Origin: Phosphitispora fastidiosa
Lineage (GTDB): Bacteria; Bacillota; Thermincolia; Thermincolales; UBA2595
Direction: 5' to 3'
Length of the DNA stretch: 64,000 bases
NCBI RefSeq assembly: GCF_019008365.1
Contig: NZ_JAHHUL010000001.1
Span: 248,001 to 312,000 of the forward strand
A program made the translations under genes and the position numbers. Numbering within the stretch: the first letter of the stretch is position 1; each line of letters opens with the position of its first letter. Under the pieces are notes generated by a model, which was not told the origin of the DNA, ran no database searches, and worked only from the letters and a program-made list of their open reading frames with translations. This document shows, one piece after another, positions 6,531-29,769 of the stretch.

Positions 6531-6695
6531 TTAGTCGGGTATGGCTAGATTTGAATCCGTATAAAGCTGCACCACTCTTTGTCCTGCCAGCAGCAATGCG
6601 CCGGCAGCGGCAACTACCAGAAGTCCGAGCACCAGGCCGTACTCTGTCAAACCCTGACCGCTGTTTTCAGTAACAAGTTTTGCCAATAACTTCAT
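6531..6695 (-). CDS. Orphan Flp/Fap-type pilin-like small protein
   Basis: A 54-residue protein beginning MKLLAKLVTE and containing GQGLTEYGLVLGLLVVAAAG. A polar start, then G(Q)xLTEYGL, then a hydrophobic helix is the hallmark of Flp family type IVb pilins, which are cut before the hydrophobic stretch by a TadV-type peptidase. The conserved Glu-Tyr pair is present. No tad secretion gene is near. The ATG at 6695 has a GGGTGGGAG stretch upstream. It is separated by about 165 bases from the ABC importer gene downstream and is likely monocistronic. The plus-strand frame across this region (6485-6673) looks like its shadow. Confidence 0.7.
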   Translation of the reverse strand: MKLLAKLVTENSGQGLTEYGLVLGLLVVAAAGALLLAGQRVVQLYTDSNLAIPD

Positions 6696-6915
6696 TGTCT
6701 CCCACCCTTCATGAAAAGCTTAAACCGGTTCGGAAACACAGTTATGATACCTTCTGTTTAAATATCGTTAATACTTCACTATTACTTTAGCATTCTTGGG
6801 TTAATACTTCCCGATGCCAAAAAGCAGGAACATTTTTACATCAAGGCAGGTAATATTAATATTTTGTAGAATTCTGTTAAATATTAAAGAACTTATTGTA
6901 GAAAAAGGTGGTAAT

Positions 6916-7860
6916 ATGTCAACTGCAGAGGTACTGCTTTCAACTGCAATTATTCCTGAACTAACCGGTATCTTTGAAGCCTCTCCTTCATGTGACTGGG
7001 GCGGCGTTCTTCTGGGTGAAATCAGTGAAAAAGACGGCATTGTTACTACCATTGTTTATGGCGCAGTCCCGGCAGCTTACAAAAAGTCTTTTCTGGACGA
7101 GTTCCGTACTAATTCCCAAATGTGGAAGGAGTTTTACACAGAACGGGACCGGCATTACCCAGACGCCAAAATAGTTGGCTGGTATTATTATTCACCAGCT
7201 TCCGGGCAGCCCCCGAAACAAAATATCGATATTCATAAAACATTCTTTGATACTCCCGGTCAGGTGTTTCTTTTCTTGGACCGTAACGGCACACCCCACT
7301 GCTATCAGAAAAGTGAATCCGGAGATAGTTTAATTCCGGTTATATCTTCTGAATTTACCGGACAATACAGCCCGGGGGGAAACTGCGATTCTGCCGGGGA
7401 CTCAAAACCGGAAGCAACATCCAACCTATGTCTGAAAATTGGGCTGAAAAAAGCCGGCCTGTTTTTGGTTTTTTTTGCAATATGCGTTTTAGGACTTATG
7501 TATAAAGACCTTACCAACCCCATTGTTGATAGTTCAAGGGCAACTCCCATACCGCCAGTGGAAACAGCTTCCTCCCCCGCTGACACGGCTCTGGTGTCCC
7601 CTTCGGAAGACAAATCCGCAGAGCCCGATATAGATATTCCCGCCATCCTGGTATCGGAAAATACTTCTCAACCGGAACCGATTTATTATATCGTACAAAA
7701 AGGCGATTCTCTGTGGGTTATTTCTGAAAAGTTCTACGGAACCGGATTCAAATTCTATAAAATTCTGGAGTCAAACAATATTTTTAATCCCAGAAACCTT
7801 TATGCCGGGCAGAAGCTTACTATTCAGCCGGAGTCCAAGGGGAGTGACTTACGGCCTTGA
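6916..7860 (+). CDS. Degenerate JAMM/MPN domain - membrane helix - LysM protein
   Basis: A 314-residue protein with three parts. Residues about 1-150 resemble an MPN/JAMM domain: DWGGVLLGE aligns with the first strand and its Glu region, IVGWYYYSPASG with the zinc motif GWYHSHPGFG, and NIDIHKTFF with the following Asp-containing segment. The two zinc His are Tyr and Ser, and the Glu position is Asp, so isopeptidase activity is unlikely. A helix (AGLFLVFFAICVLGLMY) spans the membrane near 215. A Pro/Ser-rich linker leads to a C-terminal LysM (YIVQKGDSLWVISEKFYG) that would bind glycan. The ATG at 6916 follows AGGTGG at 6 bases. Which side of the membrane each end faces is uncertain. Confidence 0.75.
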   Translation: MSTAEVLLSTAIIPELTGIFEASPSCDWGGVLLGEISEKDGIVTTIVYGAVPAAYKKSFLDEFRTNSQMWKEFYTERDRHYPDAKIVGWYYYSPASGQPPKQNIDIHKTFFDTPGQVFLFLDRNGTPHCYQKSESGDSLIPVISSEFTGQYSPGGNCDSAGDSKPEATSNLCLKIGLKKAGLFLVFFAICVLGLMYKDLTNPIVDSSRATPIPPVETASSPADTALVSPSEDKSAEPDIDIPAILVSENTSQPEPIYYIVQKGDSLWVISEKFYGTGFKFYKILESNNIFNPRNLYAGQKLTIQPESKGSDLRP

Positions 7861-7880
7861 CCACTCAGCGAATCCACACA

Positions 7881-7922
7881 CAGCAAATAAAATAACGCCC
7901 TAGGGCGTTATTTTATTTGCTG
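7881..7922. terminator. 42-bp perfect palindrome, bidirectional terminator
   Basis: Two 21-base arms pair without mismatch or loop, with a G+C centre (ACGCCCT/AGGGCGT) flanked by A+T-rich arms, so each strand ends the hairpin with a T-rich run. It ends the LysM gene on the plus strand and the small membrane protein gene on the minus strand. The last codons and stop of the minus-strand gene lie inside the palindrome. Confidence 0.85.
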
Positions 7923-8032
7923 CGTGATTTCACTGTTTTCAAGTCGGCCCTGGCAATGACGCTCGCTAAAACTCCGGTAAAAAACGTGGCAATAATTCCA
8001 AAAACAACTGCATCCACCCATGAAAGAAACAT
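7913..8032 (-). CDS. Small single-helix membrane protein (39 residues)
   Basis: A very short gene with a strong ribosome site (GGGGAGGGG, 7 bases before ATG 8032). The product starts MFLSWVDAVVFGIIATFF, continues TGVLASVIARADLK and ends in a basic tail KSRSK, which suggests one membrane helix with a positively charged cytoplasmic C-terminus. It has no recognised family. Support comes from the ribosome site, a clean hydrophobic segment and a terminator overlapping its stop codon. It may be a leader or a small regulatory membrane protein. Confidence 0.55.
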   Translation of the reverse strand: MFLSWVDAVVFGIIATFFTGVLASVIARADLKTVKSRSK

Positions 8033-8137
8033 CTTATTACCCCTCCCCCAAATAATTTATTTACTATAGACAAATTCTATTTAGGATTTTGCAAGAAATT
8101 ACACTAATATAAACTTATTCGTTATATTTTTAATGAA

Positions 8138-8305
8138 TTACATCGGTTTATGAGGTTTTTGACCCTCTTTGGCCTCGTGAAAGGTCCGGGCCATACAAAG
8201 GTTGCAAATATAAACGGCCTTAGGGTTTTTTTGCATCTTTCTGTAATCAACATGTTCCTCGGTAATGCCCTCTTTTCTCCCACACATCATACACTTGACT
8301 TGCAT
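8138..8305 (-). CDS. YlaI-type zinc-ribbon protein (DUF2197)
   Basis: A 55-residue protein starting MQVKCMMCGRKEGI and later carrying YICNLCMARTF, i.e. two CxxC knuckles that would hold one zinc. Start, spacing and the VKCMxC opening match the YlaI (DUF2197) family of small Firmicute proteins, whose role is unknown. ATG at 8305 with a G-rich ribosome site 5 to 6 bases upstream. It is transcribed leftward, about 80 bases after the comFB-like gene, and could share its transcript. Confidence 0.75.
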   Translation of the reverse strand: MQVKCMMCGRKEGITEEHVDYRKMQKNPKAVYICNLCMARTFHEAKEGQKPHKPM

Positions 8306-8383: not shown

Positions 8384-8662
8384 TCAAAAATCATGATGCG
8401 GCTCTTTTTGCACCTGAAGCAATGCTTTGGTAATCTCAGTAATCACCTTTATCCTGGTGTCCATGTATGATGCCAGAAGTTTGGAAAACACTTCACCCTT
8501 TTGAGATACATAATACTGTGGAGGGAGGTTGTTCAGCGCAATAGCCATTATATCCAAACGACACTGCTCACATTTGCACAAGCCCTCTTTCTTGTCAAGG
8601 ACTTCATCAAGCACCTCCCTGACTACTTTCTCTGTGTAGTTATGAAGTTCCAGAATAGCCAC
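8384..8662 (-). CDS. ComFB-family protein
   Basis: A 92-residue protein of the late-competence ComFB family. It shows the family pattern: an N-terminal NYTEKVVREVLDEVL helix, then CKCEQCRLDIMAIALNNLPP with zinc-type cysteines, and KGEVFSKL. Some family members bind cyclic di-GMP or similar nucleotides; the function of single ComFB genes outside the comF operon is unclear. GTG start at 8662 with GGAAGGGG upstream. No comFA or comFC gene is in the window. A diguanylate cyclase at 17863 is distant. Confidence 0.8.
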   Translation of the reverse strand: MAILELHNYTEKVVREVLDEVLDKKEGLCKCEQCRLDIMAIALNNLPPQYYVSQKGEVFSKLLASYMDTRIKVITEITKALLQVQKEPHHDF

Positions 8663-8771: not shown

Positions 8772-9344
8772 TTATCTAATGACATTTTGGTAAAATTCAC
8801 TAAAAACGCCCGCCATTGCCCGGTAACCTGCTTTGCTGGGGTGAACCTCATCATTATAACACCCGTAATTTATCTGCCCCGAAAGGTCTGTCATAGCGGG
8901 AGAAAAATCCACAACCAAGACCCCGGACGTTTCCGAGTATTCTGTGAGCCACTGACGATATTTTTGCAGATTATTTTCCAGAAACCTGTCAGAACTTGGA
9001 ATAGGCAGTCCCAACACCGGTCGAATCTCTTTTTCCCAAGCTCCGGCAGTCATCTGTAAAATACTTCTCTTAAATTCCTCCAGGGAAACTCCGATGCTGG
9101 CATCATTAGTTCCCGCCATAATAAATACGTGGCTGGGAACGTTAGAAATAACGTCTCTGGCAAAACGACGCCACAAATCCAGGGCCGTCTCTCCGTTAAT
9201 ACCCTTATTAATCATCGGGGTCCCCAGCGCAGTTTCCGCCAAGGCCACCCACGAGTATTCGGGCCCGTAAGGATAACCCCATGTTATACTGTCACCTAAA
9301 CATACCATTTTATTGGAGTTCACAATCGTTTTATTGGAGTCCAT
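8772..9344 (-). CDS. SGNH/GDSL-family esterase or lipase
   Basis: A 190-residue hydrolase of the SGNH fold. Block I CLGDSITWG holds the nucleophilic Ser, block II has NKGINGETA, block III is AGTNDAS with the oxyanion Asn, and block V DEVHPSKAGY supplies the catalytic Asp and His, so the enzyme appears complete. There is no signal peptide, hence it is probably cytoplasmic. The ATG at 9344 (AAGGAAGG 8 bases upstream) overlaps the end of the upstream DUF1232 gene by 14 bases, pointing to translational coupling. Substrate unknown; acyl-CoA thioesters or acetylated sugars are possibilities. Confidence 0.85.
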   Translation of the reverse strand: MDSNKTIVNSNKMVCLGDSITWGYPYGPEYSWVALAETALGTPMINKGINGETALDLWRRFARDVISNVPSHVFIMAGTNDASIGVSLEEFKRSILQMTAGAWEKEIRPVLGLPIPSSDRFLENNLQKYRQWLTEYSETSGVLVVDFSPAMTDLSGQINYGCYNDEVHPSKAGYRAMAGVFSEFYQNVIR

Positions 9345-9759
9345 AATCGTTGCCTTCCTTAATTTCACCAGATTGCCTTTTTTGATCCACACACCATTGG
9401 GAAAATTCCCCGATGTCTTTTCGGATTGAATTGAATACAAAAGCTATCACTGTTACATCATCAAGAAACCCTAACCCAAGTAGGAAATCGGGAATCATAT
9501 CAATCGGGTTTACAAAATAAAGAAGCGCTGCCAGCCCTGTGATTATTGTTTTTAAGGGGACTCTTCTGTACTCTCCCCTTGCCCATGCTCCCACCATTTT
9601 TATTAACAAATCCATTTCATCACGGACTTTATCGATTTTCCCCTGTTGTTTCTCAGACTTGATTATCGCCCTGTTAATTATCTCTGTTGTCTTTTTGAGG
9701 TCACCGGCAAGATTTGCCGCCTTACGTCTGCTCGCTTCGAAACCGGCGGGCTTTTTCAA
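9331..9759 (-). CDS. YkvA-type membrane protein (DUF1232)
   Basis: A 142-residue protein with a helical, charged N-terminal half and a C-terminal DUF1232 segment, LYFVNPIDMIPDFLLGLGFLDD shortened here as NPIDMIPDFL and GFLDDVTVI, which is the family signature. Two short hydrophobic stretches surround it. The TTG at 9759 is the likely start, with GGAGA about 9 to 10 bases upstream; the nearby ATG runs into a stop after two codons. It overlaps the downstream SGNH hydrolase gene. Function of the family is unknown. Confidence 0.8.
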   Translation of the reverse strand: MKKPAGFEASRRKAANLAGDLKKTTEIINRAIIKSEKQQGKIDKVRDEMDLLIKMVGAWARGEYRRVPLKTIITGLAALLYFVNPIDMIPDFLLGLGFLDDVTVIAFVFNSIRKDIGEFSQWCVDQKRQSGEIKEGNDYGLQ

Positions 9760-25596: not shown

Positions 25597-28500
25597 CTAC
25601 TTATACCATATTTCGGTCCGGTAACCGAGGTTTCCGGGTCCTGTGCCATCAGCTAAGACCGTGTTAAAACATCTGATGGTAATAAATCTGCCTTCCTTCT
25701 CAAACTCCTCAGAGAAGTAAACTGCTGTGTCTGACGGCATTCCTGACTTAAGTATCCAGCCATCGGCCTTTAATTGGTTATAGTAATAATTCCATACTGT
25801 GTCCGGAGTAATATCAGCTCTTCTGGACGATATAACCACCTGTCCGCTGCCGTAACCCACCGGAGTCGCAGATTCCCCGGCGAAAATGGATGCTTCCATT
25901 GGAGTACTCCACAGGAAGTTGTCATTAAGAGGAATGTCTCCCGGGAACTTATCAGCAAAGACCATGTTATGCCCCTGCCTGTGGCATCCTGCACATTCCA
26001 GGCTGTCACGGGCAACGGTTCTCTTAACGTCATTTAGGGAGCTGGTGTGGCAGGTATCACAGCTGTAATTCCTGCCTGCAGTTGTTGTATTGCTTATATG
26101 CTCTGATGTAAGTTCTGCCTTGTGGCAGGTCTGGCAGTTGCTGTCAAGGCTGCTTGTATGTACTGTTCCATGGTCAGCGTTCTCATGACAGGAAAGGCAG
26201 TTCTTGTCATTATTTGCAATAGCGCTCTTTACCATGGTATCAGTGCTCATATGGCACGTGTTACAGGTTATCGGATTCCCGCTGCCGTCAACCCTGCCAT
26301 CTCTGGCATGCTCCCTGGTAAGAGAAGTCGAGTGGCATTTGGCGCAGTCTGAGTCAGACACTTTATGAAGGTCAGGGATATCGTGGTTATCCATAACCAT
26401 GGTAGCCTTATACAGGTAGCCCACATGTGCCTTGGCCTGGGAACCGGGCTGGTGACAGATCACACAGTCAAAGATCTCCCGATTCTGTTTTACCCTGATA
26501 GGGAACATGGTATCGTAACCGGCAGCGCTATATTCAATATTTTTAGTGTAACCATGGCCCTCTCCCCAGTCCTCTGCTTCATCAGGGTCACCATGGCACT
26601 GGGCACAACCTGCATATGCTGTAATATAATCGTGGCACTCCCCGCAATTGGCGCTGTGACTGCCGGAAAACTGCAGTTTCCGGTGCATGGAGCTTTCAAT
26701 GGGAATGCTGGTATTGCTGACATCGTGGCAGGCCATGCAGTTGGTATAATTGGCATCAGCCATATCAGGATACCGGTTAGAATTGGTGTAGAACTTCCAT
26801 GTCTTTGTGGTAACCAGTCCCTGGTCGTCAACCGCAGTAAGGACAACAGTATGGTAGCTTTCATCACTCAGCGGCTGGGATGGTTTATATGATACCTTCC
26901 CCGAAACCGGGTCAAAGCTGTGGTTTACTATAACCCCGTCCAGTTTCATATCTATTGATCCAATAGTTCCATTGGGATCCCTGACCACTGCCGATATTTC
27001 CGGTTCCAGACACTCAATGCCATATTCAAGTGGTGCGAATCCTGTGATAACCGGCGGTGATACTACAGTAAAGGTTACCGGATATTCTTTCGAGTTACCC
27101 AGCTCATCAGTGTAGTTGAGGGTCATTATATATTCACCGTCTCTGATTACACTTTCGTGACTCAGATAAGCTTCAGTCCTGTCTGTGATAATGTAGTCCC
27201 CTGTACAGGAATCATTATAACCACGGTAACGCAGGCCAAGATTCATAGCATCCAGTGACACGATACTGCCATTTAGGGTTTCAGTTCCCCTTAAGTTTGC
27301 CGAAGCGCCCTGGATATTAATCAGGTCATGTAACTGTGCGGTAAATTTGAGGATTCCGTTGGTAATCACCAGGCCGTTATCAAATGATTTTGCAGTACCG
27401 GCAACACCGGTATTATCAGTCCGGTAAAGGAAGAACTTCATTTCCGGAGGTGTGGAGTCTTTGATGAAATTCCACGTCTGTGAACCGGTATTGCCCAGAA
27501 TATCCTTAACCTCAACATATACCGAGGTATTCCCGTCCGGAATGCTTCCGGCAAAAGAAACCGTTCCGGCAGCAGGATCAACCACCGGGTCCACTGGCTG
27601 TCCGTTTACCTGCATCAAAGCACTGGCCCAGTTTATCCCATTCCCGTCACTTGCGGTGACCGAAATACCGTTGCCCTTGTTTTTACTGCCGGCAGCCGGA
27701 GAAATAGCGGTAAATTTTGGGGCCACCCCAACAGTAAAGGACCATGTTTCGGTCATTACATTGCCTTTGGTATCAGCTATGCTGACCTCTGCAGTGTGAG
27801 TCCCGTCTGCCAGCCCTGAAGCCGGAACACTAACCGTTCCTTCCCTGTAGCTGTCAACTACCCAGACCGTCTCAGTCCAGCTGCTGCAGGAATCTCCATA
27901 AGTCCTGGTCTCACTGTGGCCCTTAAATTGAAATACCGGGGCAGCCGGAACACCGTCAATTTTGGCCCGGACGCTGGCCTTATCAAGGTTATCCTGGGTA
28001 TCTCTAACCAATAATGACACATCCGGATTTGAGACTCTTACGGTTCCCCCTTTTTCAGGGGTCCAGGCAACAGGCTCAGGTGAAGAGGTATCTGTATTAA
28101 ACTGCCAGGCAGTGGTACCCAGGTTCCCTGAAGTGTCACTCACTTCCAGATATGCCTGATAACTTCCGCTGGGGAAACTGCCGTCATAATAAACCGTGTT
28201 TGTCATGCTGTCAACAGTATGTGATACAAGTGTCCCGTTTATCTTCATAACCACCGTATCCCAGTCAATGGCATTTGAATCCTGAATCACTGCAGAAACC
28301 CTGGTCACCCCGCCCTTACTGCTCCCTGCAGCAGGTACAAACCCGCTGAACGAAGGCGGTGTGCCTATATTAAATGCCCATGTTTCAGTCATGGTATTTC
28401 CTTTTGTATCAGCTATACTCATTTCCACAGTATGGCTGCCATCCTTAAGGCCGGAAGCCGTAAAGCTTATTGTTCCCTCCCTGTAGGTATCAACTACCCA

Positions 28501-29769
28501 TACGGTCTCAGTCCAGCTGCTGCAGGAGTCGCCAAAGGTCTGTGTTTCATGATGTCCTTTAAACTTAAATACCGGCGTTACCGCAACACCGTCCAGCTTG
28601 GCCCTGGCGCTGGCCTGATTCAGATTGTCCAGGGTGTCCCTGACCACGAGAGAAACCTGCTGGCCGGCGCTCTCTACAGAGCTGCCCTGTTCCGGAGTCC
28701 GGGCAACCGGCTCAGGAGAACCGGTATCTGTAGTAAACTGCCAGGTCTTTGTGCCCAGGTTTCCATCTGAATCTGCGGCCTCCAGATGAACATCATAACT
28801 GCCGGTGGGAAAACTGCCGTCAAAATAAACTGTATTTGCTGCTGCATCAACAGTATGTGCTGCCGTTTCCCCGTCTATCTTCATGACCACAGTATCCCAG
28901 TCAACCGGATTGGTATCAGTTATCACGGCAGAAACCCGGGATACTGTTCCCTGAAAGCTGCCGGCCCCGGGTACCAGTCCGCTGAACGATGGCGGCGTGC
29001 CTACTGTGAATGACCATGTTTCGGTCATCGCATTCCCTTTTACATCAGCTATGCTTACTTCCACAGCATGCAGTCCATCTGCAAGTCCGTCGGCTGAAAA
29101 GTTTACCGTTCCTTCTTGGTAGCTGTCCACAACCCATACTGTCTGGGTCCATGTACCGCAGGAATCACTATATATCCTGGTTTCATTATGTCCTTTAAAT
29201 TTAAACACCGGTGTTACTGCTTTACCGTCAATTTTTACTTTAAGAGCAGCTTTGTCAAGGTTGTCCAGCCTGTCACTGATGCTCATGGAAACCTGCTGAC
29301 TGGCTGAAGAGATAACAGCATCTCTGGCAGGAACCAGGTTTGCCAGGTCAGGTGCGGCATCAACCGTAAAAGTCCAGGAATCGGTTTCATCACTGCCTTT
29401 TATGGAATCATAAACACTGACATTAACCGTGTAATCCCCGTCTGCCAGCATTTCCTGAGGAGTATAAGACACCAGAGCGCTTCCCGCTGATATATCAATT
29501 AAAGGCTGCACAGGTTGGGAATTAAGTGTCATGCTTACAGTATCAGCAGAAACCATTCCTTCGGTAAAGGAAATTTTGACCCCGATATCGGGTGCTGCAT
29601 TGCCGACAGTACTTCCTCCCGCCGGATACCGATCGCTGTACGAAACCCCGCCGGCAGCAGCAGCTGCAGCGACATAACCGGAGACAGCCACAGCAAGAAT
29701 AAGTAAAATCAGTATAATCCTTTTTGGAAGGCTCATCAAACGATAAGCATTAACAATTTTTTCTGTCAA
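25597..29769 (-). CDS. Secreted ten-heme cytochrome c with Ig-like repeats
   Basis: A 1390-residue exported protein. TTG 29769 follows GGGAGGG and gives a signal sequence (IILILLILAVAVSGYVAA). Most of the N-terminal two thirds is built from bacterial Ig-like domains, including about three near-identical units of roughly 212 residues (637 bases), each ending SFTVG-type and containing a lone conserved Cys (SDSCGTW, GDSCSSW). A fourth, divergent copy follows. Then ten CxxCH heme motifs (CMACH, CGECH, CAQCH, CVICH, CAKCH, CNTCH, CLSCH, CQTCH, CDTCH, CAGCH) sit between about residues 1030 and 1300. Such proteins carry electrons outside the cell in metal-reducing Clostridia. Confidence 0.9.
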   Translation of the reverse strand: MTEKIVNAYRLMSLPKRIILILLILAVAVSGYVAAAAAAGGVSYSDRYPAGGSTVGNAAPDIGVKISFTEGMVSADTVSMTLNSQPVQPLIDISAGSALVSYTPQEMLADGDYTVNVSVYDSIKGSDETDSWTFTVDAAPDLANLVPARDAVISSASQQVSMSISDRLDNLDKAALKVKIDGKAVTPVFKFKGHNETRIYSDSCGTWTQTVWVVDSYQEGTVNFSADGLADGLHAVEVSIADVKGNAMTETWSFTVGTPPSFSGLVPGAGSFQGTVSRVSAVITDTNPVDWDTVVMKIDGETAAHTVDAAANTVYFDGSFPTGSYDVHLEAADSDGNLGTKTWQFTTDTGSPEPVARTPEQGSSVESAGQQVSLVVRDTLDNLNQASARAKLDGVAVTPVFKFKGHHETQTFGDSCSSWTETVWVVDTYREGTISFTASGLKDGSHTVEMSIADTKGNTMTETWAFNIGTPPSFSGFVPAAGSSKGGVTRVSAVIQDSNAIDWDTVVMKINGTLVSHTVDSMTNTVYYDGSFPSGSYQAYLEVSDTSGNLGTTAWQFNTDTSSPEPVAWTPEKGGTVRVSNPDVSLLVRDTQDNLDKASVRAKIDGVPAAPVFQFKGHSETRTYGDSCSSWTETVWVVDSYREGTVSVPASGLADGTHTAEVSIADTKGNVMTETWSFTVGVAPKFTAISPAAGSKNKGNGISVTASDGNGINWASALMQVNGQPVDPVVDPAAGTVSFAGSIPDGNTSVYVEVKDILGNTGSQTWNFIKDSTPPEMKFFLYRTDNTGVAGTAKSFDNGLVITNGILKFTAQLHDLINIQGASANLRGTETLNGSIVSLDAMNLGLRYRGYNDSCTGDYIITDRTEAYLSHESVIRDGEYIMTLNYTDELGNSKEYPVTFTVVSPPVITGFAPLEYGIECLEPEISAVVRDPNGTIGSIDMKLDGVIVNHSFDPVSGKVSYKPSQPLSDESYHTVVLTAVDDQGLVTTKTWKFYTNSNRYPDMADANYTNCMACHDVSNTSIPIESSMHRKLQFSGSHSANCGECHDYITAYAGCAQCHGDPDEAEDWGEGHGYTKNIEYSAAGYDTMFPIRVKQNREIFDCVICHQPGSQAKAHVGYLYKATMVMDNHDIPDLHKVSDSDCAKCHSTSLTREHARDGRVDGSGNPITCNTCHMSTDTMVKSAIANNDKNCLSCHENADHGTVHTSSLDSNCQTCHKAELTSEHISNTTTAGRNYSCDTCHTSSLNDVKRTVARDSLECAGCHRQGHNMVFADKFPGDIPLNDNFLWSTPMEASIFAGESATPVGYGSGQVVISSRRADITPDTVWNYYYNQLKADGWILKSGMPSDTAVYFSEEFEKEGRFITIRCFNTVLADGTGPGNLGYRTEIWYK

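Follow-up and report, generated by a model that had tools for sequence, protein, structure and literature searches.

JAMM domains are regarded as enzymes that act inside the cell on ubiquitin-like proteins, and the change from MPN+ to MPN- has been seen in the proteasome lid, the COP9 signalosome and eIF3. Like the protein described here, Rpn8, CSN6, eIF3f/h and KIAA0157/Abro1 have an MPN fold without the zinc motif, but they are soluble, reside in large PCI-MPN or BRISC complexes and possess neither a membrane helix nor a LysM domain. The bacterial membrane or spore LysM proteins YneA, SafA and SpoVID resemble it in joining LysM to a non-enzymatic part, although to our knowledge none of them has an MPN domain. 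The bacterial JAB/JAMM isopeptidases have an MPN domain homologous to the one studied here and belong to operons of a ubiquitin-like protein (Ubl), E1, E2 and JAB (Iyer et al. 2006, PMC1779556); unlike our protein, they lack a membrane helix and LysM.

The protein is encoded in a 64,000-nucleotide stretch of the Phosphitispora fastidiosa genome, the whole of which is referred to as the window. The open reading frame at 6916-7860 on the forward strand encodes 314 amino acids, with coordinates and start codon as in the original prediction. The window genome (G000) is 4.09 Mb in size, and a close relative is a Thermincola ferriacetica MAG (G001, locus L034), whose orthologue is 64% identical at the protein level. 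A Shine-Dalgarno-like sequence, AAAGGTGG, read directly at 6904-6911 on the forward strand, lies 5' of the ATG at 6916, and a likely intrinsic terminator, a palindromic sequence of which one arm is T-rich, follows directly 3' of the gene at 7884-7921. Given these two flanking signals, the gene is probably a single-gene unit.

Against Pfam JAB (PF01398) the window protein scores 14.6 bits (E 0.03), below the cut-off of 22.5, and an intact relative, G029, passes with 36.8 bits. Homology to MPN domains was therefore tested by other means. Eight intact relatives, all from outside the Thermincola clade, were used to build a profile; its sole match among the 507 window ORFs is 6916-7860 (E 1.6e-15), with 55.3 bits versus 8.4 for the best of 5000 shuffled copies. 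Profile-profile comparison of the domain with hhalign gave a probability of 98.9% (E 2.8e-17). The family profile also matches Rpn11 chains at about 1e-11 to 1e-13, and a phmmer search of the PDB with the single MPN sequence returned nothing meaningful. An AF2 model of residues 1-147 from six aligned sequences (pLDDT 81.9, pTM 0.80) shows the MPN fold that had been anticipated, and the top of the VIA list is Rpn11 (4owp_B; Z 16.7, rmsd 2.5 over 140 residues). The matches listed by Foldseek and VIA-align all contain MPN domains, and the dead MPN- subunits CSN6, eIF3h and Mov34/Rpn8 are among the structural matches listed. AF2 from the two Thermincola sequences alone was uninformative (pLDDT 41), and the fold assignment therefore leans on the intact JAMM relatives in the alignment. 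As modeled, the N-terminal domain (aa 1-147; 6916-7356, forward strand) has the MPN/JAMM fold, an assignment that is not independent of those relatives.

The JAMM (MPN+) motif, E-x(n)-H-x-H-x(7)-S-x(2)-D, is lost from the window protein at all five positions by alignment (Glu to D27, His to Y91, His to S93, Ser to P100 and Asp to N103). On the forward strand, D27 takes the place of the catalytic Glu at 6994-6996, Y91-Y92-S93 that of the zinc motif H-x-H at 7186-7194, and P100-K101-Q102-N103 that of S-x-x-D at 7213-7224, where a one-residue gap just before the S-x-x-D position makes the Asp column less certain than the His columns. The loss of both zinc His residues and the change of Glu to Asp had been foreseen; the motif Ser and Asp are gone as well. 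Homologs with an intact HxH do exist, and since they align cleanly, the loss in the window clade is real and not a misalignment. The same five positions read D, Y, S, S and N in G001 and V, L, S, S and E in G009, a genome of the same order. Thermincola, G009 and G097 form one supported clade (96/91) in which all members are dead. The motif pattern was read over 31 relatives. On the tree, the dead label requires about six changes, and well-supported branches force two or more of these.

The rest of the protein follows the predicted order of a membrane helix and then a C-terminal LysM domain. Its one hydrophobic stretch (Kyte-Doolittle maximum 2.09) corresponds to a single membrane helix at about aa 177-195 (7444-7500, forward strand), predicted to be N-in from the flanking charges. 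The LysM domain (aa 258-303; 7687-7824, forward strand), predicted to lie outside the membrane, matches PF01476 with 38.3 bits versus a cut-off of 20.9; the NCBIfam SafA and YneA models match this part below cut-off. No signal peptide was recognizable in the window protein sequence. Summed over 21 members, the N side has 77 K and R within 15 residues of the helix and the C side has 48, although the bias is reversed in G391 and in Carboxydocella (G013), and topology is thus not uniform over members. The charge bias, which holds for most members but not all, together with the lack of a recognizable signal peptide, favors a type II (N-in) arrangement, in which the MPN domain is cytoplasmic and LysM lies outside the membrane, where it would bind peptidoglycan. 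The original suggestion of a wall-bound sensor fits the predicted position of LysM but not that of the MPN domain, which is predicted to be cytoplasmic.

The combination of domains is not peculiar to the window protein, but occurs in a scattered Bacillota family. In a 398-genome draw of the phylum, the MPN profile matches in 33 genomes, and when Carboxydocella is added, about 22 proteins share the order of MPN, one membrane helix and LysM. The JAMM motif is intact in nine of these, from all eight genomes of family f22 (8/8) and from G165; those of G352 and G227 keep the zinc ligands and have lost the Glu. About eleven are dead (G000, G001, G009, G013, G107, G176, G193, G309, G330, G391 and G372). 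In G372 the helix and LysM are in another frame than MPN; there, a frame change before the helix splits the gene (L149, about 7500-8200), and could be either a sequencing error or a pseudogene. Four genomes of family f51 have JAMM and a C-terminal helix without LysM, and G097 has a dead MPN domain and a helix with no LysM within 1.2 kb downstream. The family profile has three further weak matches (G008, G217 and G235). A contig scan by LysM pattern added little breadth: most of its 80 loci, which include Thermincola ferriacetica, Carboxydocella and three Bacillota MAGs, are LysM-only, as is the one match among plasmids. In the literature we found no paper describing a JAMM-TM-LysM protein, with subscription journals thinly covered. 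A HEPN-domain neighbor of the MPN gene is common to G097 and Carboxydocella (loci L160 and L168), and suggests that the two MPN genes are orthologous.

Loss of every active-site residue in the Thermincola-type clade, and a Carboxydocella copy that is even shorter, could mean that the MPN part is a decaying, functionless remnant and that LysM alone does the work. We estimated dN/dS by NG86 between two Thermincola species at unsaturated dS (0.5-1.2) and obtained values of 0.17 (MPN), 0.09 (helix) and 0.07 (LysM); the fast-evolving linker gave 0.59, and the stretch just before the helix 1.7. In this comparison purifying selection acts on the dead domain, and because its dN/dS is far below that of the linkers, it is not behaving as a decaying remnant. 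The frame is also open in ten of the dead MPN-helix-LysM members, and we regard decay as very improbable.

Several MPN relatives are found next to genes of ubiquitin-like conjugation. The relatives in G243 and G095 adjoin genes for a YukD-type Ubl and an E1-like ThiF protein, those in G109 and G243 an E2 gene; in all three genomes the relative has an intact motif and neither a helix nor LysM. This adjacency is what could be said for a receptor that binds a Ubl tail at the membrane and still acts in conjugation. However, searches for YukD and UQ_con (E2) had no match in the window genome, and the same searches do match in G243 and G095 (both) and in G109 (E2). Among the 31 family-bearing genomes, YukD was found only in G243, G095 and G097, and E2 only in G109, G243 and G095. 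G097, whose degenerate MPN protein has no LysM, has one YukD match; apart from it, YukD and E2 are confined to the three genomes whose JAMM protein lacks the helix and LysM. The MPN-helix-LysM form, active-looking or dead, therefore lives without detectable YukD or E2. The receptor is accordingly quite unlikely, and the ubiquitin-like partner first suggested finds no support in the window genome as far as the searches for YukD and E2 reach. The domain probably descends from an active JAMM isopeptidase akin to those of the bacterial ubiquitin-like operons.

Two further observations concern JAB domains. Family f21 (L143, 2713-7954, and L142) has a YukD-E1-JAMM-E2 operon that goes on with genes for a trypsin-like serine protease and for a protein in which an FHA-like (Yop-YscD_cpl) domain is weakly matched. 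Elsewhere in the window genome (G000:C1:79028; L169, 1276-3135), an HflX-type GTPase ORF has an N-terminal extension that weakly matches JAB (Prok-JAB E 6.6e-4, below cut-off) with the motif HTHPGG...SDVD; a JAB-HflX fusion is possible.

The spore is another setting in which the protein could act. It could be made in the mother cell and inserted in the outer forespore membrane, LysM reaching into the cortex and MPN facing the coat, and could link coat and cortex as the LysM proteins SpoVID and SafA do; we consider both the location and the link rather doubtful. SpoIVA occurs in 33 of the 33 family-bearing genomes and in 336 of 398 overall (hypergeometric p 0.003 if independent, about 0.02 counted by family), but spore formers make up most of the phylum's genomes in any case, and the counts are not independent. 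The co-occurrence (also counted as 31/31) is less striking because the SpoIVA background is 84%, and is suggestive only. Most sporulating genomes lack the MPN family, and no sporulation gene was recognized beside the MPN-TM-LysM gene. Comparison of the upstream regions of G000, G001 and G009 revealed conserved blocks, but by eye no sporulation-type promoter was recognized in the region shared with G001.

We consider it reasonably probable that the window protein is a type II membrane pseudo-JAMM scaffold, in which a cytoplasmic MPN domain binds a partner and LysM holds the protein to peptidoglycan. Such a protein would cross the membrane once, with its N-terminus in the cytoplasm and its LysM domain bound to peptidoglycan outside. 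The pseudo-JAMM domain would serve as a protein-binding module, as in the MPN- subunits Rpn8, CSN6 and eIF3 f/h, and may hold a cytosolic or mother-cell partner at a place on the membrane marked by peptidoglycan. This scaffold step is inferred, and against it stands that no neighboring gene is conserved across families. The membrane form would have kept or lost its active site lineage by lineage. More broadly, and tentatively, the proteins may represent an undescribed transmembrane JAMM/pseudo-JAMM family of spore-forming Bacillota that joins a cytoplasmic MPN domain to a peptidoglycan-binding LysM, was freed from Ubl conjugation, has repeatedly exchanged catalysis for scaffolding, and perhaps anchors a cytosolic assembly, such as the spore coat, to the wall. 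A membrane- and wall-coupled MPN family, present in genomes without detectable YukD-type Ubl or E2, in which several lineages turned an enzyme into a pseudoenzyme would offer a bacterial setting for how MPN+ became MPN-. It also brings to light members, those of family f22, whose active site is intact.

Synteny, which had been proposed as a check, is conserved within the Thermincola order, where the neighbors kept (in G001 and G009) are genes for ComFB, a GDSL hydrolase and a pilin-like protein; no neighbor is conserved across families. In the window, the ComFB and GDSL hydrolase genes are at 8384-8662 and 8772-9440, both on the reverse strand, and they adjoin the gene in G001 and G009 too. 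The 54-aa ORF at 6531-6695 on the reverse strand, divergent from the MPN-TM-LysM gene, is Flp-type pilin-like (GQGLTEYGLVLGLL), and G001 and G009 keep a similar stretch at the corresponding position; we noticed no tad cluster among the ORFs of the window. Farther along the window, at 25597-29769 on the reverse strand, lies the gene for a large multihaem cytochrome-like protein of 1390 aa, which has repeated domains of extracellular type and, at its C-terminus, a series of CxxCH heme-binding motifs.
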